Assembly (NCBI GenBank): GCA_943333505.2
Contig: CALQTN020000014.1
Location: forward strand, 1 to 64,000
Origin: Asaia bogorensis
GTDB lineage: Bacteria > Pseudomonadota > Alphaproteobacteria > Acetobacterales > Acetobacteraceae
Direction: 5' to 3'
DNA length: 64,000 nt
Below the pieces are notes generated by a model. That model was given only the letters and a program-made list of their open reading frames with translations, was not told where the DNA came from and searched no databases. Position numbers and translations under genes: made by a program. The stretch's first letter is position 1. Each line of letters opens with the position of its first letter. Of this stretch, positions 48,938 through 60,832 are shown one piece after another.

Positions 48938-49368
48938 GGGGTGGATGGGGCTTGCTGTGTTCTCAGCAAGAGTTTCACGCTATTTTCACTGTTCATTCTG
49001 TAGTTGCGGGGGGCTTCGTCGCGTTCTCTGTTGTGATTTAACGGTATTTTAACTGTTCTTTGAACTAGTTGTGGCTGGGACTCGCTGTGTTCTTTGGTAA
49101 AATGCTTCCGGATAGTTGCGGAGCGTTGTCACTGTTGCGGTCCGACCTCGTCGCGTTCTCTGCTAGAACGTCGAGCAAGCGCCGGTCGAGGTCCAGGCGA
49201 GTTGCGGTTGGGCCTCACCGCGTTCTCTGCTAGAACCCGACCATAGTGTCAGTATTATCAGAATCAGTTGCGGTTGGGCCTCACCGCGTTCTCTGCTAGA
49301 ACCGCAAGACCCAGCGCGACCGATCGACCCAGGTTGCGGTTGGGCCTCACCGCGTTCTCTGCTAGAAC
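48938..49368 (+). CRISPR. Type II-C CRISPR array, seven 36-nt repeats, partly degenerate
   Basis: Repeats lie at 48938-48973, 49003-49038, 49068-49103, 49134-49169, 49201-49236, 49267-49302 and 49333-49368, with 29-31 nt spacers. The last three are identical. The fourth differs at about five positions and the first three increasingly more, but the 65-67 nt period shows they are true repeats. The unit starts GTTGCGGTTGGG and ends TCTCTGCTAGAAC. Its complement matches the tracrRNA anti-repeat at 54140, so crRNA is read on the plus strand. The TGCTAGAAC end looks like an extended -10 element, as in type II-C arrays with repeat-internal promoters. Confidence 0.96.
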
Positions 49369-49401
49369 AACCCCGTTATAACCTCATGTTATAACGGGGT
49401 T
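49369..49401 (+). terminator. Terminator directly after the CRISPR array
   Basis: A perfect 14-bp inverted repeat, AACCCCGTTATAAC (49369-49382) and GTTATAACGGGGTT (49388-49401), has the loop CTCAT and is followed by TTCTTTG. It abuts the last repeat without a spacer, so it would end plus-strand pre-crRNA transcripts. Confidence 0.85.
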
Positions 49402-49524
49402 TTCTTTGATTTACGGCAGCAAAAACCACGGTAAAGGGGGGGTACTGCCCCGTCCGTTTCGCCGGTTTTTGGGCTGAACAAATGCGGCGCCAGCCGATCT
49501 GAGGGCAAAGATTGCGCCGATTCT

Positions 49525-49866
49525 TCAAAATAAAGCCAACTGCCCGGGTTTTTCCGGCCGCGCTGTGGTACCGACGCCACGAAAACTTTGGATTGATTCG
49601 TACTGCTTGTCGGTGAACCAGATCACCTCAACCTTACCGGGATTGGGTACCGCCTGGCCAATCCGGCGGGTCATCGCCTGGGCCTGTTCGCGCCCGGCGG
49701 TGAAGCGCAGATAGCAGGAATACTGCATCATCGCGAAACCTTCATCGAGCAGGAAGTTACGAAACCCGGTGGCCCGTTTGCGTTCGGGTTTGGTCATCAC
49801 CGGCAGATCAAACAACGCCATCACCCACAAGATACGATACCCCGACAGATGTGAAACCCCGATCAC
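49525..49866 (-). CDS. cas2: CRISPR-associated endoribonuclease/adaptation protein Cas2
   Basis: Cas2 is the structural partner of Cas1 in spacer integration. The 113 residues read GYRILWVMALFDLPVMTKPE, then ATGFRNFLLDEGFAMMQYSC YLR, and VEVIWFTDKQYESIQSF. This is the type II-C Cas2 pattern with the conserved Asp in FDLP. It overlaps cas1 by 4 nt (ATGA) and is the last gene of cas9-cas1-cas2. The true start may be the later ATG before ALFDLP, but SGYRI is typical of the family N-terminus. Confidence 0.94.
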   Translation of the reverse strand: MIGVSHLSGYRILWVMALFDLPVMTKPERKRATGFRNFLLDEGFAMMQYSCYLRFTAGREQAQAMTRRIGQAVPNPGKVEVIWFTDKQYESIQSFRGVGTTARPEKPGQLALF

Positions 49867-50807
49867 GCCGCCGCATCCGCAGGGCCGGCGGCCGGTTCTG
49901 CGACTGGAATGGCGGATTTCGGCAGCGCCAGGGTTTTGCGCTCGCCGAGGAATATCTGGCCCAATGACATCGCCAGACGGCCGAGCACATTGGCGAGGGG
50001 GGCCATACCCTCAGTGGTCAGATAATCCGCATGCAGCACGGCAACCAGATCGCGCTTGGCCGCCGGTGTCATTGTTTCATGGCCAGCGCGGATTAACCCG
50101 AGCGCCGCCAGATCGACCGCTGGGCGGAACGGTTCCATCAGGTCATCAGCCAGCCGCAACGCTTCCCCGCGTGAACGATGGGCGAGCGACAGTGACGGGT
50201 GCAGGCCGGATGCGACGATGGCGCGCGCGGTGGCGGTGCGCAGGACGGTGTAACCGTAATTCAGGAAGGCGTTGGCGATGAGGTCTTCCCGGCTACGGGT
50301 AAAGCCAGCGCCGAATGCCATCGGGAAATAGCGTTGGGCGGCCTGGGCTTCGCAATTATCGGGATCGCCAGACTTTACCCGTTCTGCAAGGGCAGCAACC
50401 GGGATGGGATTCTGCCCAATCCGCACCAGCAACGCCGCCTGGGCGAGAATTTTCGCCCGCACCAGCTCGGCCCATAGGCGCTTGCGGGTCGGCAGGCTGG
50501 CGTCGGCCTGGGCTTGGACCCGGTCACCCTGGGCGTAGTGGCCATCGACCGGCAACAAATAGGCCGCTGGTTTGAAGTCGGCACCGCAAATCACCACTGG
50601 CACACCGCGTTCGGCGAGGGCTGCCAGCAACTGGCCGGTGATGTTGGTGGCCGGGTTGGTGACCATCAAGGCGTCGATATCAGCCAGCGCGACCTGCCCC
50701 AACACGCCATCCGGGCCGGCGATCGTGAGAAAGCCGCGATGCAAGCTTAGCTTGCGTCCAACGCCCGCGATCTCCACAATCCGGCCCAGCATGATATTGC
50801 CCGCCAT
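49863..50807 (-). CDS. cas1: CRISPR-associated integrase Cas1 (type II)
   Basis: Cas1 integrates new spacers. The 314 residues show the metal-binding residues Glu153 (NCEAQAAQRYF), His210 (GLHPSLSLAHRS) and Glu225 (DDLMEPFRPAVD). The N-terminal MLGRIVEIAGVGRKLSLHRG is typical of type II-C Cas1. The start may be the second ATG at 50792, which gives MLGRIVEIA and has GGCGGG just upstream. An Ala-rich C-terminal tail (AEPAAGPADAAA) extends past the core. It lies 74 nt after cas9. Confidence 0.95.
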   Translation of the reverse strand: MAGNIMLGRIVEIAGVGRKLSLHRGFLTIAGPDGVLGQVALADIDALMVTNPATNITGQLLAALAERGVPVVICGADFKPAAYLLPVDGHYAQGDRVQAQADASLPTRKRLWAELVRAKILAQAALLVRIGQNPIPVAALAERVKSGDPDNCEAQAAQRYFPMAFGAGFTRSREDLIANAFLNYGYTVLRTATARAIVASGLHPSLSLAHRSRGEALRLADDLMEPFRPAVDLAALGLIRAGHETMTPAAKRDLVAVLHADYLTTEGMAPLANVLGRLAMSLGQIFLGERKTLALPKSAIPVAEPAAGPADAAA

Positions 50808-50881
50808 TGTTGAAGGGGGGCAACATAGAGACGGTTTATGACAAACAACTAACGATCAAGAGTAAAATTTTATCGTCTGGG

Positions 50882-53800
50882 TTAAACATTGCTGCGACGC
50901 TTCCGTGTCCCGCCGATGGGATCGACAAGGATCGCAACGCAATTCCGATCTTTCAGACCCGAAATACCAGCGAGATCCCAATCAAAGGGGTCAGTGATAT
51001 CCTTCTTTCGTTCTGTGAAATTTCCACCTTCGTTGTGCGAAACGAGGTACAATCTATTGCCGCTCGGGTTCAATCGAACAACAGTCTTCACCCGCCGCAC
51101 CCCGTCCTTGTCATCAACCTCCAGCATATCGCCTTTATGCACCCGCATTACCAACTTGCCGCCCAGCTTTTCCCGCTCCCATTCGGGCCGCCAGCCGCGC
51201 TGATTGACTTCAAACACTGTCGCGGCAAAGCCCTGCCATTTGCCATCGCGCATTTGGACAATATCCATGTGATGGTTTTCGCCTGGGGTGACAGCCCGAT
51301 AAATTTTGCCGGTGGTGCGGTCTTTGAGCTTGACCGCACTGTGATCGACCTTACCGACCCGGATGCGGCGAACCCCGCTTGTGGTTGCGTATCCGTCCAG
51401 CACAGCCGCAAAGGCTTTCTCGTCGGCCTTAGCGATCTTGCCCTTTCCATCCCGTAGCGACGCCGTCAGCGCCTGCAATTCCTGCCGGATCAGCGGATCG
51501 CGGACAGCATCAACCTCCCCGGCAGTCAGATCGCGGATGAATTTGCGGCGGACCAGATTGCCGATCTCGGCGGCCTCGGCCACATCATCGATCAGGCCGT
51601 AATTGGTATCCTCATGCAGCGCGCCGGCCTTGCCGCGTTCGGGCTTGTTGGACACGATCACCGCGTCGATCCGCGCCCGGACATGATCGCGGAAGCCTTC
51701 AAACGGTGGCGGAACTTTGCCGAGCAGGGCATCGAACTCCCCAGCCTCACTCCGGCCCGCCGATTTGGCGAGATATTGCAGCAACCCGCGGGTCATCGCG
51801 CCGATCAGCACCGCATCAATGGCGTGGTGGCGATGGTCACTGCGGTTTTTGTGGTTGTCGTCGGATAGTAAGCCGTTGAGTTCGAGTTTGCCGCGCAGCA
51901 TGCCGGTCAGGGTGCCGGGGACGACGTAAATCTGGTCGGGGTCGCAGATTTTACCGAGATAGGCTTTGGCAAGCCGGGACAGATAGCGGGTTTCGTTCAA
52001 TTGGCGGGCGAGGAAGTCGCGTTCGCCGCTAAAGCGGTCCATCGCGTCGGGTAGGAAGCGCCAACGCTTCTGGCGCGGCAATTCAGCGCCCCGCGCGGCG
52101 ATTGCCTCCCAGTCTGGCGATTGACCAAATGCCTTGTAAGGTGCGTTGCCGCGTTTGATACGGTTGGTTTCGCGGAACACCAAAACCTTATTGGCGGCGC
52201 TGTCATCAAGGGTCAGTGATCTGGGAAGAATATGCTCCTCCTCAATCTCGGAGCCAGCACTAAACAACTGCGCGCAGCTTATTGCCTTACCTGAGAACGG
52301 GCACAGCACGATCCCGCCAATTGTTTGATCTTCGTAGAGCCGCAGCCGAGCGCGGTTCCTGCCATTGGCCTCAACGCCCAGTTCAGCCAGTTTTTGGTCG
52401 CGCCGCCGGTTGGCGTCCTTGTTGGTGCGGTTACGGTCCTGTTCTTCTTTCTTCTGCTGGGCGGTCTGCTTGAGTTCGCGCGCCAGTTCGACGGTGATCT
52501 GTTTCGGGTGACCGAAGCTGGCGATCAGATCATTCACCACGCGGCGCAACTGGTTGAGGCCGATATGGACGGTGGGGTTGGCAATGCGGCCATGGAAGGC
52601 GGCATCGTCTTTTTTGTCGGCCGGGTCGGAACTGCCGGGCATGATGTGGCGGGCGAGGACCGCGCCATAATAGGGCAGGCGGTCGAAAATTTCGCCATCG
52701 CGTTCATCGGAATGGTGCCAGCCAGCGCGCTTGACGGCTTCGTTATAGGGCACAACCCGGCCATTTATATCGGTTTCGTGGATCAGGGCCGTGAGTATTT
52801 TGGCGTTGGCGGTCTTGCCGAACCGGGAATAGCCGTCGGGCAGGAAATGGTTTTTCGTGCAATTGAAGGCCTGGGTTAGCGACAGCCCGTCTTCAGCGAC
52901 GAGACGCGCTGCCAGAACATCATCATCGGTTTCTGCCAGAAGCTTGGCGATGAAGGCGTCCTTGTCGGCATAGGATAAAGTGCGCCAGGCGGGGCCGTAG
53001 TGATCCGGTTTGAGGAGGATCGCGTTGGCCTTAAGGCCGGCAAGCTCGGTTTCCTCGCTCTCCTCTAAATTGATCCGAACGTTGGAGCCGAATTTAAGCG
53101 CCTTGCGGATTTTGGCGAAGGTGAGTTTCGGCTGCCATAACACCACGCTGGCCACAAGGTCGCGCTCATCCACGCTCAGCTTGCGTTGCTCGAGTGAGTT
53201 CGTGGAAACCCGGATATGGTTGAGCCTTTCGTAGATTTCGCGCGCCTGGACAGAGATGAGGGCTTTCGGCAGGCGTTCCTCGGTTGGCACGAAGGTGCAT
53301 TTGCCAATGAGTTGCGGTTTGAGCGGGCGCTGGCGGAACAGGATTTTGGCGATGCGTTCACCGAGTTCGGCGGTGATGTGGCGGGGGGAAAAGCCGGACT
53401 GGGTTGCCCAGAGCTGGTTGAATTCGTCCCGGAGCATCGCCCGCAGCGGGTAGAAATGGTAGAGCGCCTTGGTGCCTTTGCCGTCGAGCCTGATGCGGGT
53501 GGGTTCGTAGTTTTGGTGGCGGCGGGCGAGGAACTCGCCAAAGGTTCGGCAGTGTTGTTCGGCCAGCTTGTCACGTAACGCGGAGGCAGCCCTGGCGATT
53601 TTGCCGTTATCGTCCTCGTTGCCCTTGTCGGTCTTGCGATTGGACTGAAAGCCGCGGCGTTGGTTGAGGTGGAAGATGGCGCGGCCGAGTTCGTATTGGG
53701 TCAGGGGGCGGTCAAGCGCGGCGGCGCGGAGTTGCATTGGATCCGCGGTTTGCAACGCCTTGCGCGCGACCGGGTCGGCAGGCAGCAGGCCGGTTTCGAT

Positions 53801-54055
53801 GAGGGTTTTCAGCAAATCGCTGCGACGCAGCACGAACCTGTCGCGCCGCTTGCGCGCACCCCGCGGCACACGGCGCATGGCGGCAAGCGATTGTTCGTCC
53901 TTGGGATTGCGGCCGTCCTTGAACAGCCGAACGCCCGCCCAGAGCAATTCCAGCGGGGCGTTATCGCCGTAAATCCCCGCCGGGTCCGGGCCGATACGCC
54001 AGACCGCGCTGCCGATGGAGTTGGTGCCGATATCGAAAGCAAAGCGCATATCCAT
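50882..54055 (-). CDS. cas9: Cas9, type II-C RNA-guided endonuclease
   Basis: This 1057-residue Cas9 is compact and has all nuclease residues. RuvC-I Asp8 is in FAFDIGTNSIGSAVW, and the Arg-rich bridge helix is MRRVPRGARKRRDRFVLRRS. RuvC-II Glu523 is in ITVELARELKQ. The HNH core has His608 in EIEEEHILPRSLTLDD, with Asn622 and Asn631. RuvC-III His744 and Asp747 are in SDHRHHAIDAVLIGAMT. The C-terminal 250 residues should hold the PAM-interacting domain. The ATG at 54055 has GGAGG five nt upstream, and the longer frame to 54100 lacks support. With cas1-cas2 and no csn2 or cas4, this is subtype II-C. The PAM is unknown. Confidence 0.97.
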   Translation of the reverse strand: MDMRFAFDIGTNSIGSAVWRIGPDPAGIYGDNAPLELLWAGVRLFKDGRNPKDEQSLAAMRRVPRGARKRRDRFVLRRSDLLKTLIETGLLPADPVARKALQTADPMQLRAAALDRPLTQYELGRAIFHLNQRRGFQSNRKTDKGNEDDNGKIARAASALRDKLAEQHCRTFGEFLARRHQNYEPTRIRLDGKGTKALYHFYPLRAMLRDEFNQLWATQSGFSPRHITAELGERIAKILFRQRPLKPQLIGKCTFVPTEERLPKALISVQAREIYERLNHIRVSTNSLEQRKLSVDERDLVASVVLWQPKLTFAKIRKALKFGSNVRINLEESEETELAGLKANAILLKPDHYGPAWRTLSYADKDAFIAKLLAETDDDVLAARLVAEDGLSLTQAFNCTKNHFLPDGYSRFGKTANAKILTALIHETDINGRVVPYNEAVKRAGWHHSDERDGEIFDRLPYYGAVLARHIMPGSSDPADKKDDAAFHGRIANPTVHIGLNQLRRVVNDLIASFGHPKQITVELARELKQTAQQKKEEQDRNRTNKDANRRRDQKLAELGVEANGRNRARLRLYEDQTIGGIVLCPFSGKAISCAQLFSAGSEIEEEHILPRSLTLDDSAANKVLVFRETNRIKRGNAPYKAFGQSPDWEAIAARGAELPRQKRWRFLPDAMDRFSGERDFLARQLNETRYLSRLAKAYLGKICDPDQIYVVPGTLTGMLRGKLELNGLLSDDNHKNRSDHRHHAIDAVLIGAMTRGLLQYLAKSAGRSEAGEFDALLGKVPPPFEGFRDHVRARIDAVIVSNKPERGKAGALHEDTNYGLIDDVAEAAEIGNLVRRKFIRDLTAGEVDAVRDPLIRQELQALTASLRDGKGKIAKADEKAFAAVLDGYATTSGVRRIRVGKVDHSAVKLKDRTTGKIYRAVTPGENHHMDIVQMRDGKWQGFAATVFEVNQRGWRPEWEREKLGGKLVMRVHKGDMLEVDDKDGVRRVKTVVRLNPSGNRLYLVSHNEGGNFTERKKDITDPFDWDLAGISGLKDRNCVAILVDPIGGTRKRRSNV

Positions 54056-54105
54056 GGTCGCCTCCAGGCAGAGCCCGATGTCGTTACCGCAGCATGACAT
54101 TTGGC

Positions 54106-54135
54106 TTGCATCGCGGCAAGGCGGTGCGCTAGGGT
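54106..54135 (+). promoter_or_regulatory. Putative tracrRNA promoter
   Basis: TTGCAT (54106-54111) and TAGGGT (54130-54135) are spaced 18 nt apart, which would start transcription near 54141-54143, the first bases of the anti-repeat. Both boxes are weak matches, so this is a positional inference. It lies in the short divergent region upstream of cas9. Confidence 0.4.
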
Positions 54136-54139
54136 CTGG

Positions 54140-54223
54140 GTTCTAGCAGAGAACGCGGTGTGGCCTTTCCGTTAACAAGGTTTCATACCACCGAATGAGG
54201 GCGGGCCCCGGTCCGCCCTTTTT
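54140..54223 (+). ncRNA. tracrRNA of the type II-C system
   Basis: 54140-54160 (GTTCTAGCAGAGAACGCGGT plus G) is the exact reverse complement of the 3' 21 nt of the intact CRISPR repeat. Pairing then continues with interruptions (GGCC, CCGTTAAC) to 54176, covering the whole 36-nt repeat. Next come AAGGTTTCATACCACCGAAT, a nexus-like stretch, and a GC-rich terminator stem, GGGCGG (54199-54204) with CCGCCC (54213-54218), ending in T5 at 54219-54223. The RNA is about 84 nt and divergent from cas9, starting some 85 nt from its ATG. Confidence 0.88.
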
Positions 54224-54284
54224 GCTGTCTGAGGGGTTGTTGAGACGCTTGCATTCTGTGTTCTTTTTGGTTAGTATTAAAGAC

Positions 54285-54824
54285 ATGAATGCATTTCCAT
54301 CACCCTTTATTCGGCCTGATGCGGCGCCAGAGATGGTGCTGCGTTTTGGCGTGATCATGGCGGGGTTGGCGGCTTTGATAGCGCGGCGGTTTTTGCGGAT
54401 GCCGCATTTGATGCGGTTTACGGCGCTGTTGTATGGCCGGATTATACGGGCGGTGGGCCGGTTTGAGCGGGCGTTGGGGCGGCCAAAGCGGGTTCGGGCG
54501 AAGCGGGTGGCGCGGGCTGGGGATGTTCGGACGCAGGCGGTTTCGCTGCCGCGCGGGCATGGCTGGCTGGTGCGGGAACTCGGGTATGAGGCGGCGGCGT
54601 TTATGGGCCAGTTGGAGGCGCTGTTGGCCGAGCCTGCGATGCAGGCGGCCCTGGCGGGCGCGCCGGGGCGGGTGCTGCGGCCGATTTGTCGGATGCTGGG
54701 GGCTGTTGCCGCACCGGTCGTGGTGGCGCAGGCTGTGCCGGTGGTGAAATATTATGTGGGTGGTGAGGCGATGGGCCTGGCGGGCGTGAGCGGCGCGGTG
54801 GTGCCGTTTGCAAAAATTGATTGA
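54285..54824 (+). CDS. Hypothetical protein between tracrRNA and rho
   Basis: This is a 179-residue frame I do not recognise. The N-terminus (MNAFPSPFIRPDAAPEMVLR) is followed by a possible membrane helix, FGVIMAGLAALIARRFLRMP, and then a strongly basic stretch (GRPKRVRAKRVARAGDVRT). A second hydrophobic, Ala/Val-rich part (MLGAVAAPVVVAQAVPVVKY) lies near the end. The ATG at 54285 was chosen because the frame above it crosses the tracrRNA terminator. Third positions are strongly GC, like neighbouring genes, supporting real coding. It is not a known Cas protein. Confidence 0.6.
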   Translation: MNAFPSPFIRPDAAPEMVLRFGVIMAGLAALIARRFLRMPHLMRFTALLYGRIIRAVGRFERALGRPKRVRAKRVARAGDVRTQAVSLPRGHGWLVRELGYEAAAFMGQLEALLAEPAMQAALAGAPGRVLRPICRMLGAVAAPVVVAQAVPVVKYYVGGEAMGLAGVSGAVVPFAKID

Positions 54825-54854
54825 GAGCGTGGCGGGATTTTTGCGTCTTATTTG

Positions 54855-54868
54855 TTACGATATCGTAA
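54855..54868. promoter_or_regulatory. Perfect 14-bp palindrome TTACGATATCGTAA
   Basis: A perfect palindrome sits in the short gap between the hypothetical gene and rho, about 30 nt upstream of the small frame at 54899. It looks like an operator for a dimeric repressor, but which one is unknown. Confidence 0.4.
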
Positions 54869-54898
54869 TTATGTTGCTTAATTCAGAGAAGGAGAAAG

Positions 54899-55015
54899 AT
54901 GGATTTCTTCGCAACGACACGGTTTTTGCCGATGGCGGCACGCCACCGGCAATATTTATCAGAAAGTTTTTTTGCTTCTTTTTGTTCACAAAAAGAAGTG
55001 CTGCCCCTCCCTTAG
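54899..55015 (+). CDS. Possible small protein (38 residues) reading through the hairpin element
   Basis: The ATG at 54899 is preceded by GAGAAGGAGAAAG, a very strong ribosome-binding site. The frame begins [20 protein letters not shown] and ends in [11 protein letters not shown]. Its last third is encoded by the A/T-armed hairpin element. It overlaps the rho stop on the other strand by 3 nt. No family is recognised. It may be a real small protein or chance reading of the repeat. Confidence 0.35.
54975..54998. repeat. A/T-armed hairpin element, copy 2 (downstream of rho)
   Basis: The arms CTTCTTTTTG and CAAAAAGAAG are identical to the copy at 6483 but in the opposite orientation, with the same AGTTTTTTT-type flank at 54965-54973. 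It lies 13 nt after the rho stop codon on the minus strand. It is a likely transcript-end structure for rho, although the run after the stem on that strand is A and not T. Confidence 0.7.
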
Positions 55016-56283
55016 GTATTCATAGCGTCAAAAAAGTCTTGATTGGATTTGGAATATTTCAGCTTATCCAACAGGAAGTCCATCGCATCCATAGTGCCCA
55101 TCGGGTTGAGGATACGGCGCAGGACCCACATTTTGGACAATGTGCCCTTATCGACCAGCAATTCTTCCTTACGGGTGCCGGATTTGGTGATGTCGATGGC
55201 CGGGAAGGTGCGCTTGTCGGACAGTTTGCGGTCGAGGATGATTTCGGAGTTACCGGTGCCCTTGAATTCTTCAAAGATCACTTCGTCCATGCGGCTGCCA
55301 GTGTCGATGAGCGCGGTGGCGATGATGGTCAGGCTGCCGCCTTCCTCGATATTGCGGGCAGCGCCGAAAAAGCGCTTGGGGCGTTGTAGGGCGTTGGCAT
55401 CGACACCGCCGGTCAGCACCTTGCCCGATGATGGGACGACGGTGTTGTAGGCGCGGGCGAGGCGGGTGATGCTGTCAAGCAGGATGACCACGTCGCGCTT
55501 GTGTTCGACCAGGCGCTTGGCTTTTTCCAGCACCATTTCGGTGACCTGGACGTGGCGGGTTGCCGGTTCATCGAAGGTGGATGCCACGACTTCGCCACGC
55601 ACGGTGCGGGCCATGTCGGTGACTTCTTCCGGGCGTTCGTCGATCAGCAGCACGATCAGGAAGGCATCGGGGTGGTTGGCGGCGATGGATGTTGCGATCG
55701 ATTGCAGCATCATGGTTTTGCCGGTGCGCGGCGGGGCGACGATCAGCGCGCGCTGGCCTTTGCCGATCGGGGCGACGAGGTCGATCACCCGGGGGATCAT
55801 ATCGCGCGTCGCACCCTTGGCGATTTCTTTGTATTCCATCTCCATATGGAGACGCTGGTCGGGGTAAAGTGGCGTCAGGTTATCAAAGTTGATGCGGTGC
55901 TTGACGGCTTCCGGCGGCTCAAAATTGATGGTGTTGAGCTTGAGCAGGGCAAAATAGCGCTCGCCATCCTTGGGGGCGCGGATCTGGCCTTCGACGGTAT
56001 CGCCGGTGCGAAGGGCATAGCGGCGGACCTGGCTGGGGGAGATGTAGATATCGTCCGGGCCGGGGAGGTAGTTGGATTGCGGGCTGCGGAGGTAGCCGAA
56101 GCCATCCGACAGAATTTCCAGCGTGCCTTCGCCGTAAATCGCCTGATCGTTGTCGGCGAGGTTCTTCAGGATCGCGAACATCATGTCCTGCTTGCGCAGA
56201 GAGGACGCGTTTTCGATCTGAAGGGATTCGGCGAAACTCAGCAAATCTGCCGGGGTTTTTGCCTTGAGTTCGGCAAGATGCAT
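55012..56283 (-). CDS. rho: Transcription termination factor Rho
   Basis: Rho is the hexameric RNA helicase that ends transcription. The 423 residues begin [20 protein letters not shown], then the RNA-binding cold-shock-like domain ([20 protein letters not shown]), Walker [17 protein letters not shown], the Q-loop/Walker [20 protein letters not shown], and the R-loop region [20 protein letters not shown]. Length is normal. It belongs to the conserved origin-side cluster with hemJ, hemH and hemE. A 199-nt leader separates it from hemJ. Confidence 0.98.
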
Positions 56284-57606: not shown

Positions 57607-58658
57607 GAGGTCATCCCAGCTTTTTGCGATGGGCAATCGCGATTATTGGACGGGCAAATCCCGTTTGCCGCCAGGTTGCACAGGCCCGGACCATGCGCGC
57701 GTGCGGCCCTTACCAGGCTGGCAAGGGCTCCGATAAAATCAGGGTCTGAATTGGCGGCCGGCGTACGGAAATAGGCCGGGACGCCTGATTTATGCGCCAG
57801 TTCACGGTATTCCATGTCCAACTCGACCAAAGTTTCAGAGTGGTCGGAGACAAACGCGATCGGCACCACCAACAAAGCAACCTTGTCGTGGCCGGCCCGT
57901 TCAACCTCGGAGTCTGTCGATGGACCGATCCAGACCTGCGGTGTTGCGCGGGACTGATAGCAGACCGCATAATCGAGACCGTCAATCGCCAAGGCGGCAA
58001 CCACCGATGCCACCGTGCTCTCGATCTGCGCCTGATAGGGATCGCCGCGTTTGATGATTACCTCAGGCAGGCCATGGGCAGAAAACAGGATACGTAAACC
58101 GGTTTCACGTGAAACCTCGTTCCGTGCGGCATCATAACTGCGACGTACCAGGCCAGCTATTGCCGCCACAAAATCTGGGTCATTATGGTAGCAACACACG
58201 CTGACAACCGGTTTGGCCAGACCTGCTTTGGCGGCAGCTTCGCGCCAATCGGTCAGTGAACTGCCGGTTGTCGTGGTTGAAAACTGGGGATAGAGCGGCA
58301 GCAACACGATTTCATCAGGGTTCCAGTCGCGAACCTGCTTCACGGTCTCGGCCGCGAACGGATGCCAGTAGCGCATCGCCACGAAGCATTTCACGTCAAG
58401 CTCCGGCAACGCGGCTTCGAGCGCGCGAGCCTGGGCGTTGGTCAGGTCGAGTAACGGGGATTTTCCGCCCATCAGCGCGTAAATCTCGGTCGCGGGCTTG
58501 ACCCTGGCGCTGGCAATGTAGCGGGCAAGGAATGGTCGCACGAAAGGCGGGACCCGCAGAATGGCGGGATCACGGAACAGATTAAGCAGAAAAGGCTTGA
58601 TCGCCTCTGGGCCGTCGGGGCCACCGAGGTTGAACAGGACAATTGCAACTCGGCTCAT
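57603..58658 (-). CDS. hemH: Ferrochelatase
   Basis: HemH inserts iron into protoporphyrin IX. The 351 residues show VAIVLFNLGGPDGPEAIKPF, LRYWHPF-like MRYWHPFAAETVKQV, ILFSAHGLPEVIIKRGDPY with the metal-binding His, and VPIAFVSDHSETLVELDMEY with the catalytic His and Glu. Length is normal. Overlaps of 4 nt with hemE upstream and the HAD gene downstream indicate one transcript hemE-hemH-HAD-hemJ. Confidence 0.97.
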   Translation of the reverse strand: MSRVAIVLFNLGGPDGPEAIKPFLLNLFRDPAILRVPPFVRPFLARYIASARVKPATEIYALMGGKSPLLDLTNAQARALEAALPELDVKCFVAMRYWHPFAAETVKQVRDWNPDEIVLLPLYPQFSTTTTGSSLTDWREAAAKAGLAKPVVSVCCYHNDPDFVAAIAGLVRRSYDAARNEVSRETGLRILFSAHGLPEVIIKRGDPYQAQIESTVASVVAALAIDGLDYAVCYQSRATPQVWIGPSTDSEVERAGHDKVALLVVPIAFVSDHSETLVELDMEYRELAHKSGVPAYFRTPAANSDPDFIGALASLVRAARAHGPGLCNLAANGICPSNNRDCPSQKAGMTS

Positions 58659-59671
58659 GCGCCGCGCACCTGGGCAACCAGTGCACCGACATGCTCGGGC
58701 GGGGTTTCCTTAATGATCCCATGGCCGAGGTTGAAGATATGGGGAAGGCCTCGGCGCGCCGCCAGAACCCCAGCGGTTTCGATGGCCATGGCAGTGCCAC
58801 CAGTCAACAACGCCACCGGGTCGAGATTACCCTGCGCAGCCATGCCCTTTGGTAAGGTCACCGACGCCGGGTCCATCGCGGTATCGAGATGCACCGCCTG
58901 AACCCCGGTCTGGGCCGCATACTCACCAACCATGAAACCGGCGAGGCGGGGGAAACCAATCACCGGAGTGTCGGGATGCCTGACTTTGAGGGCGGCAACA
59001 ATCCGTGCAGTCGGTGCAATTACATAATCGCGGAACAGACGCGGCGGCAAAATCCCGGACCAGCTGTCGAACAGCATCACCGCCTCGGCCCCTGCGGAAA
59101 TCTGGGCGGACAGATAGGTGATCGTTGCTGCCTCAATGGTGGCTATCAGCCGGCTGAATAAGGCTGGATCGCCATGCGCCATCGCCCTTACCGCACCAAA
59201 CTCCTTCGATCCGTGCCCTTCGACCATGTAGCAGGCCACCGTAAACGGGCTACCAGCAAAGCCGATCAAAGTGGCCGAGCCAACATCGGCGGCCACTTTG
59301 CGAACGGTTTCCAGGATAGGTTGGATGGCTGCGTCCACTTTGGACAGATCCAGCGTATCCACGCCGGCGGCATCGCGTATTGGGGGCAGTTGCGGGCCTT
59401 CGCCTTCGGCAAAACGCAGCCCCTGTCCCAGCGCCCATGGTACCATCAGGATGTCGCTGAACAGGATTGCCGCATCCATGCCGAAACGCCGCACCGGCTG
59501 CAGGGTGACTTCGGCGGCTTTCCGCGGGCTTGTCGCCAGATCGATGAAGTCCCGGCATTGCGCCCGGATTGCCCGATACTCTGGCAAATAGCGCCCAGCC
59601 TGGCGCAACATCCAGATCGGTGGTGGCCAAACAGCCTCCCCAGCAAGCACCCGCAAAACGGTCTTTGTCAT
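58655..59671 (-). CDS. hemE: Uroporphyrinogen decarboxylase
   Basis: HemE makes coproporphyrinogen III. The 338 residues include PPIWMLRQAGRYLPEYRAIR, SDILMVPWALGQGLRFAEGE GP, GFAGSPFTVACYMVEGHGSK, and HLDTAMDP with LPKGMAAQGNLDPVALL. The ATG at 59669-59671 begins MTKTVLRVLAGEAVWPPPIW. It is the first gene of the haem operon and lies directly beside the predicted replication origin, as in Caulobacter. Confidence 0.97.
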   Translation of the reverse strand: MTKTVLRVLAGEAVWPPPIWMLRQAGRYLPEYRAIRAQCRDFIDLATSPRKAAEVTLQPVRRFGMDAAILFSDILMVPWALGQGLRFAEGEGPQLPPIRDAAGVDTLDLSKVDAAIQPILETVRKVAADVGSATLIGFAGSPFTVACYMVEGHGSKEFGAVRAMAHGDPALFSRLIATIEAATITYLSAQISAGAEAVMLFDSWSGILPPRLFRDYVIAPTARIVAALKVRHPDTPVIGFPRLAGFMVGEYAAQTGVQAVHLDTAMDPASVTLPKGMAAQGNLDPVALLTGGTAMAIETAGVLAARRGLPHIFNLGHGIIKETPPEHVGALVAQVRGA

Positions 59672-59965
59672 CGGATCGCCAACGCCTTCTTCAAGAAAGA
59701 TAGAATCCTTAAAAGGATGTAGGTGTAGATGGGCCTGTGGATAGCGAGGTACCCCGGCTTTGGCCAGTTATCTTCCGCTTGTCCACATGCACCGCGTGTC
59801 CTAGCCGACTGATCCCCAACCAAAATTGCCAACCATGCCCAGACCCATAGCAAACGCTCGTAAAACTATCCCTGTGCGCGCAACATGGCGACTTATCCCC
59901 GCTTGCCCAGCCCCGTCCGGAACCCTGTGCATGATTTTGCCACTTATCCCCGTAATCCTCCGCTG
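59672..59965. other. oriC: Predicted chromosomal replication origin (oriC)
   Basis: This 294-bp gene-free segment lies between divergent hemE and the PPDK-regulator gene, the position of the mapped origin in Caulobacter. It carries DnaA-box-like 9-mers: TGTGGATAG at 59736-59744 (complement CTATCCACA), TTGTCCACA at 59779-59787, TGATCCCCA at 59810-59818, and TTATCCCCG at 59893-59901 and 59944-59952. The first two differ from TTATCCACA at one position. An A/T-rich stretch (GAAAGATAGAATCCTTAAAA, near 59696-59715) beside hemE could be the unwinding element. Flanking genes point away from it. It also holds promoters for both genes. Confidence 0.78.
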
Positions 59966-60832
59966 ATGACCGACGCACAAACCCTGCATCTGCATCTTGT
60001 TTCGGACGCTACCGGCGAAACCTTGAACTCCATCCTGCGTGCCACTCTGGCGCAGTTTGAGGAGGGTAAGGAAGAAGGCCGCATCGTCCATCATCGCTGG
60101 AGCCTTATCCGCACCCGGTTCCAGCTGCACCGGGTGATAGATGGCGTCGAGGCTGAGCCCGGCCCGATCCTGTCCACCCTGGTTGAAGCCGGCATGCGAG
60201 GGGAATTGGATGAAGCCGCAATGCGGCTGAACTTGCCAGTGGTGCACGTGCTTGATCCGGTGCTCGGCATGTTGCAACAGCAATTAGGCCATCAGGCGAC
60301 GGCCAGGCCGGGTCGTCAATACGTGCTGGATGCCGCCTATTTCAAACGTATCGACGCGATGCACTATATTTTGGCCCATGATGACGGCCAAGCTCAGGCC
60401 GGGCTTGCTGAGGCCGATGTGGTTCTGGTTGGGGTGTCACGGTCATCGAAAACCCCGACCTCATTTTACCTCGCCAATCGCGGCATCAAGGCCGCCAATA
60501 TCCCCTTGGTGCCAGGCACGCCGGCACCGCCTGGCTTGGAAGCGCCGCATTGCCCGGTGATCGGACTATCGATCGATGCGAATGCCTTGATCGAAATTCG
60601 TCGGAACCGGCTACGAATGATTGCGACCGGCAGTCCGGAAACCACCCGCGGCGGGACAACCGACTACGTCGATCAGGAAGCGGTGCGGGCTGAACTGCTA
60701 TGGGCCAAGCGGCTTTGCGCGGCGCGGGGGTGGCCAATGATCGATGTCACCCGGCGCTCGATCGAAGAAACCTCAGCGACGATTTTGCAACTGATGGATT
60801 CGTGGCATGCCAAGCGGGCTGCAAAAGGGTGA
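59966..60832 (+). CDS. Pyruvate, phosphate dikinase regulatory protein (DUF299)
   Basis: This family regulates PPDK or PEP synthetase by reversible phosphorylation (kinase and phosphorylase in one protein). From the ATG at 59966 the 288 residues begin [20 protein letters not shown]. The P-loop-like [20 protein letters not shown] starts at 156, and [27 protein letters not shown] is the conserved end. An upstream in-frame ATG at 59885 would place 27 unconserved codons inside the DnaA-box region and is rejected. It overlaps maf by 4 nt (GTGA). No PPDK gene is in the window. Confidence 0.93.

Follow-up and report, generated by a model that had tools for sequence, protein, structure and literature searches.

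A predicted chromosomal replication origin of the hemE/COG1806 type in Asaia bogorensis and its footprint across the Acetobacteraceae

The intergenic segment at positions 59672–59965 of the window (the whole 64,000-nucleotide stretch of Asaia bogorensis DNA that was analysed) is, at a probability of roughly 0.93, the chromosomal replication origin of this bacterium, and the sequence evidence supports its assignment to a known kind of oriC, the Caulobacter hemE/COG1806 type. The anatomy of the segment, its conservation, its place beside hemE and a change of GC skew near the site in three relatives are features of the sequences themselves. The original prediction that this segment is the origin is supported by a family-wide footprint, which remains beside hemE in genomes whose regulator gene is not adjoining, and by the skew changes in the three relatives, which lie within one sampling step of it.

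The segment is a real gene-free interval of 294 bp and, as had been predicted, the flanking genes point away from it. On the left is hemE (uroporphyrinogen decarboxylase; 58655–59671, minus strand; TIGR01464 at 359 bits against a cut-off of 302.95, and PF01208) and on the right a PPDK/PEP-synthase regulator gene (59966–60832, plus strand; PF03618 at 275 bits and NF003742 at 290.7 bits, cut-off 225). We take this regulator (PF03618) to be the equivalent of the COG1806/DUF299 gene of Cori, the Caulobacter crescentus origin. By protein family matches, both boundary genes of the hemE/COG1806 type of oriC are hence present at the gap. Origins of this kind are sought in intergenic regions of 200–1000 bp with an AT content greater than that of the genome, according to the available text of PMC1914354; the gap falls within this size range and is more AT-rich than its surroundings, with a GC content of 0.548 against 0.625, a comparison made with the whole window and not the whole genome. 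An alternative in-frame ATG at 59885 (315 aa ORF) would place two of the DnaA boxes described below, those at 59893 and 59944, within the regulator gene, and the regulator protein query, which started at 59966, was blind to this alternative. The start was taken as 59966 because, in family genomes where the regulator does not adjoin, the match to the footprint model (R1, see below) crosses 59893 in seven of seven and 59944 in four of seven. Elsewhere in the window (49067–54100), close to rho and some 5.6 kb away from the predicted origin, there is a type II CRISPR-Cas system that includes Cas9 (50882–54100, minus strand), Cas1 (49863–50807, minus strand) and five 38 nt repeats with 66–67 bp spacing (49067–49369) that are 71–100 % alike.

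Two boxes in the gap are one base off TTATCCACA, just as the original prediction had stated, namely box 1 (CTATCCACA; 59736–59744, minus strand) and box 2 (TTGTCCACA; 59779–59787, plus strand), which are inverted relative to one another with a start-to-start distance of 43 bp. A further four sites are two bases off, at 59810, 59893 and 59944 together with a sixth match at 59926 on the minus strand. The two sites with ≤1 mismatch to TTATCCACA compare with a mean of 0.033 per 294 bp, and the six sites with ≤2 mismatches with a mean of 0.385, both means being for the 70,982 bp contig with the gap included. Across 451 kb of the genome, box density in the gap is above that found elsewhere and is tied by one other 300 bp stretch, C4:9628, and because this stretch also has six, box density alone is no proof of an origin. 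Exact copies of TTATCCACA number 11 in the genome, all on other contigs. The narrower box TTATNCACA, the form used in PMC1914354, does not occur in the window and is present in 25 of 60 gaps.

The alignment used to examine conservation (A1) comprised 56 gaps, and motif counts were made on 60 gaps, the window included. Box 1, for which the consensus is TTATCCACA, is retained with ≤2 mismatches in 40 of the 56 sequences and box 2 in 45. Box 3 (59893–59901) and box 4 (59944–59952), both TTATCCCCG on the plus strand, are within one mismatch of TTATCCACA or TTATCCCC[AG] in 37 and 39 of 56, respectively, and a weaker TAATCCTCC, for which the consensus is CTATCCTC, adjoins box 4 at 59953. Five DnaA-box-like 9-mers had been predicted, and these four are conserved in the alignment; the fifth, at 59810, is kept in only 2/56 and was rejected as a functional box, as was the match at 59926, kept in 3/38. 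The columns of the four boxes (59736, 59779, 59893 and 59944) carry 1.35 bits per column compared to 0.42 in the 225 other columns of A1, and when four 9-mers were placed at random this conservation was reached in 0 of 5000 trials, the set of four being the predicted five minus 59810, which was dropped after its poor conservation was known. An inverted pair of boxes with ≤1 mismatch, 43–45 bp apart, is found in 29 of the 60 gaps, window included.

The A/T-rich stretch adjoining hemE that formed part of the original prediction is located at 59687–59719 (30 % GC). It has an A-rich consensus in relatives and is a candidate unwinding element, and an AT content as high is seen in 179 of the window's 63,968 33-mers. 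By box 1, on the plus strand, there is a G-phased trinucleotide element (59716–59731) that is trio-like but not A-centred. It was recognized from the G counts of the alignment columns: at 59716, 59719, 59722, 59725, 59728 and 59731, G is found in 34, 53, 52, 36, 39 and 37 of the 56 rows, and in 3–32 rows for the columns between the phased positions; the column just outside, 59715, has 37, and the phase is weaker once alignment gaps are ignored in reading. The order from box 1 towards hemE is GC spacer, G-phased element, A-rich stretch. A conserved block, CGAGGTACC here and CGGGGTACC in consensus, abuts box 1 at 59745–59753 and is a possible divergent tandem box; 33 of the 60 gaps together have 40 copies of GGTACC, where 4.4 would be expected from shuffled sequences.

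This arrangement resembles the basal unwinding system (box, spacer, DnaA-trios) as set out in the available text of PMC8287927, in that an element with trinucleotide phasing and an AT-rich stretch lie next to box 1; it differs in that the phase here is G whereas the trios of that system are A-centred. Only the NAN part of the published rule (PMC8287927) was applied, on a single strand next to box 1. Three NAN trios no more than 16 nt from box 1 were found in 9/56 sequences, a smaller share than the 42 % seen in shuffles, and in the window an A-centred run would need a spacer of 17. Canonical DnaA-trios were rejected, as the conserved phase is G and the NAN rule holds in those 9/56 only, and because A-centred trios occur less often than in shuffles the origin was not classed as being of the standard trio type.

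From this anatomy we infer that DnaA binds the segment, that it is unwound there and that it is active in this organism. In the most likely mechanism, DnaA would bind the strong inverted pair at 59736/59779 as well as the weaker TTATCCCCG boxes on the side of the regulator gene. Starting at box 1, it would then spread leftward, across the GC spacer and next the G-phased element, as far as the A/T-rich stretch by hemE, where the duplex would open, two helicases would load, and forks would leave both ways.

The relatives examined were the best 80 matches to the regulator protein in genome_contigs. In 59 of these 80, hemE adjoins the regulator gene in divergent orientation, with gaps of 253–416 bp as estimated from the protein matches, and in the other 21 hemE is absent from the fetched piece. 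A sequence-only model (R1) was built from A1, with the window itself among the sequences used and gaps that have no adjoining regulator left out. It finds a single match in this 4.52 Mb draft genome, at 59704–59962 (E 5.6e-37), but because this genome and its close relatives were both in R1, the matches in them are by construction. In a set of 60 relatives, R1 matches 34 of the 36 family genomes, and in 34/34 the best match is no more than about 180 bp from hemE; four of these 34 also have matches at other places, all weaker (E 9e-5 or worse). Six of the 24 genomes from other families match more weakly: by hemE in G042, G047, G050 and G055, by the regulator, where a contig ends, in G054, and by neither in G051. 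When more family genomes were drawn, R1 matched 114 of the 120, the exceptions being G033, G035, G090, G099, G147 and G164; both large searches were run with stricter filters, and weak matches were lost. This breadth, together with box columns that stand above the rest, is conservation of the kind looked for in an oriC of the hemE/COG1806 type. In seven of the 34 matching family genomes the regulator is either elsewhere (G005, G026 and G034) or was not found (G012, G013, G017 and G029), and since the footprint is nonetheless kept by hemE in all seven, it is not merely the leader of the regulator gene.

GC skew was sampled along single contigs of three relatives, two from the Acetobacteraceae (G029, 3.41 Mb, 40 samples of 20 kb; G017, 2.70 Mb, 20 samples) and one from another family (G047, 3.38 Mb, 19 samples). 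The sign of the skew changes between the samples that begin at 1785 and at 1870 kb in G029, where the footprint is at 1874 kb, between 600 and 675 kb in G017 (footprint at 611 kb) and between 2100 and 2200 kb in G047 (footprint at 2209 kb). Each footprint falls inside one of the two samples that flank the best two-replichore step. Shuffled sample orders fitted two replichores equally well in 0, 0 and 1 of 200 cases, respectively, a test that speaks to the existence of two replichores and not to the place of the origin. In the same three genomes, dnaA is found at 602, 1965 and 0.2 kb, each >1 Mb from the footprint. At closer range, the 4.4 kb left of the footprint in the G029 sample are already at +0.033 and the right is at +0.133; the corresponding values in G017 are −0.086 and +0.041, and three of the four 2 kb bins directly left of the footprint in G047 are positive. 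As the left flanks in G029 and G047 are already positive, the skew switch is placed only to the sampling step.

Local skew is mixed in relatives and, in the window, does not support an origin at the gap. Of 11 relatives for which 12–20 kb were read per side, eight step upward across the site, some by just 0.005, and three (G009, G007 and G002, the last from the genus of the host) do not show the expected step. Nine samples along one contig of G015 revealed no clear switch. In the window, skew is positive on both sides of the gap (+0.065 in the left 20 kb, +0.021 in the right 11 kb) with no minimum. Eighteen 20 kb samples taken from this genome (151 contigs) have a mean absolute skew of 0.031, and a single local step is therefore weak evidence for or against an origin. 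As proof of an origin, skew within the window and along G015:C1 was set aside, there being no usable signal. A strong positive skew (0.198), the opposite of what is expected left of an origin, was observed at 54001–56000 of the window around rho and an adjoining ORF.

It is very improbable that the segment is an inherited origin site now disused, with the active origin elsewhere, for example near dnaA or at C4:9500–9850. The unsupportive local skew would fit such a history, and as 19 of the best 80 relatives have no recognizable footprint, loss may occur. The available text of two papers also places oriC near dnaA in Acetobacter, in A. pasteurianus 386B (PMC3751514) and in A. cerevisiae KSO5 (PMC13209655). 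Against this, dnaA is not conserved near the ori in Rhodospirillales, as far as the text available of PMC8116508 goes, and the dnaA region of this genome (C5:93001–113000) has no box cluster and one box with ≤1 mismatch, so that an origin at dnaA was rejected here. The footprint, moreover, scores strongly in 5/5 genomes of the host genus searched, the close ones being in R1. As to the second site, the AT-rich island at C4:9500–9850 of this genome (G000; L227:9500–9850) ties with the gap in box count at C4:9628 and includes an inverted pair of DnaA-like boxes separated by 2 bp (9679 and 9690), but it has no match beyond one 22 bp stretch in 39 other family genomes, and an origin there was rejected as not conserved. 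A parB-parA-rsmG-mnmG-mnmE cluster was seen at a contig end (C5:167–5579; L111:167–5579), the gene names other than mnmG being a reading of the ORFs; in the assembly it is not beside rho/hemE. The distance between hemE and mnmG is 5–100 kb in 14 family genomes with both on one contig, a selection that favours closeness.

Slimmer still is the prospect that the boxes belong to a DnaA-controlled promoter region for the regulator or hemE and to no origin: DnaA boxes do occur in promoters and the gap must contain the start regions of both divergent genes, but the footprint persists in the seven genomes with no adjoining regulator, so that a promoter role could at most be one for hemE, and the skew changes sign near the footprint in the three single-contig relatives.

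An origin at this segment has clear counterparts. Cori lies between hemE and COG1806, and Rickettsia keeps these neighbours (PMC1914354, available text), which agrees with what had been stated in the original prediction. The same text gives Cori the boundary genes, DnaA boxes and AT-rich stretch found here, and in addition five CtrA sites and an IHF site, whereas the window has neither TTAA-N7-TTAA nor the IHF consensus. The predicted ori of Rickettsia likewise has the hemE/COG1806 pair, and that of Wolbachia lies by hemE with COG1806 >600 kb away (PMC1914354), a situation comparable to that in the seven family genomes above. In these two the CtrA sites are variable, from none upward, and IHF sites are present, whereas the host gap has neither and contains TTATCCACA-like and TTATCCCCG boxes.

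The absence of a CtrA-type TTAA-N7-TTAA pair had been correctly noted in the original prediction and proved to be general: there is none in the window, and 1/60 gaps has one (palindromic, and so counted once per strand). With no sites present, CtrA control of the gap was rejected. A looser CtrA form is found in 12/60 gaps (13 counts vs 5.2 in shuffles), and the IHF site WATCA-N5-WTR, with no copy in the window, in 16/60 (17 sites vs 2.7 in shuffles). GANTC is enriched about twofold in the gaps (162 vs 77 in shuffles) and is present in 49/60, with one site in the window. The genome also encodes a GcrA-family protein (C42), found by a search that also matched the Sulfolobus control, and a GANTC/GcrA role at the origin is a lead only.

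Nineteen of the best 80 relatives have no recognizable footprint anywhere in the genome (e.g. those with loci L044, L033, L043 and L040). The other two of the 21 loci without hemE are from genomes that have the footprint and short contigs only (G083 and G088), and a profile search upstream of the regulator in these 21 loci found a clear footprint in L034 only. In 18 of the 19 footprint-less relatives hemE is present apart from the regulator gene. The sequence before the regulator is longer than 1.6 kb in all but two of the 19 loci (17, the exceptions being L037 and L046), and in none of the 19 is there a box with ≤1 mismatch in the 400 bp before the regulator. The record titles name Rhodopila in four cases and Acidisphaera sp. 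S103, Asaia bogorensis and Nitrosovibrio in one each, the rest being Acetobacteraceae/Proteobacteria. The origin in these relatives may have moved, may have diverged strongly, or may not have been assembled. The 19 may form one clade, and the site may have been lost in them rather than being unassembled or too diverged. A tentative and on balance doubtful extension is that the Acetobacteraceae have a variant unwinding module, composed of a strong box, an abutting CGGGGTACC-like divergent tandem box and a GNN rather than NAN track for single-strand binding by DnaA, and that one group of relatives (four of the 19 titled Rhodopila) moved its origin to another site.

A literature search, judged at the level of search results, found no description of a hemE-linked origin in the Acetobacteraceae, and the segment points to an origin in a family where two Acetobacter genome papers place it near dnaA. 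As R1 finds the site in 114/120 family genomes, drafts included, it would help in estimating growth rates from read depth, and the footprint-less relatives mark a group in which relocation of the origin could be studied.
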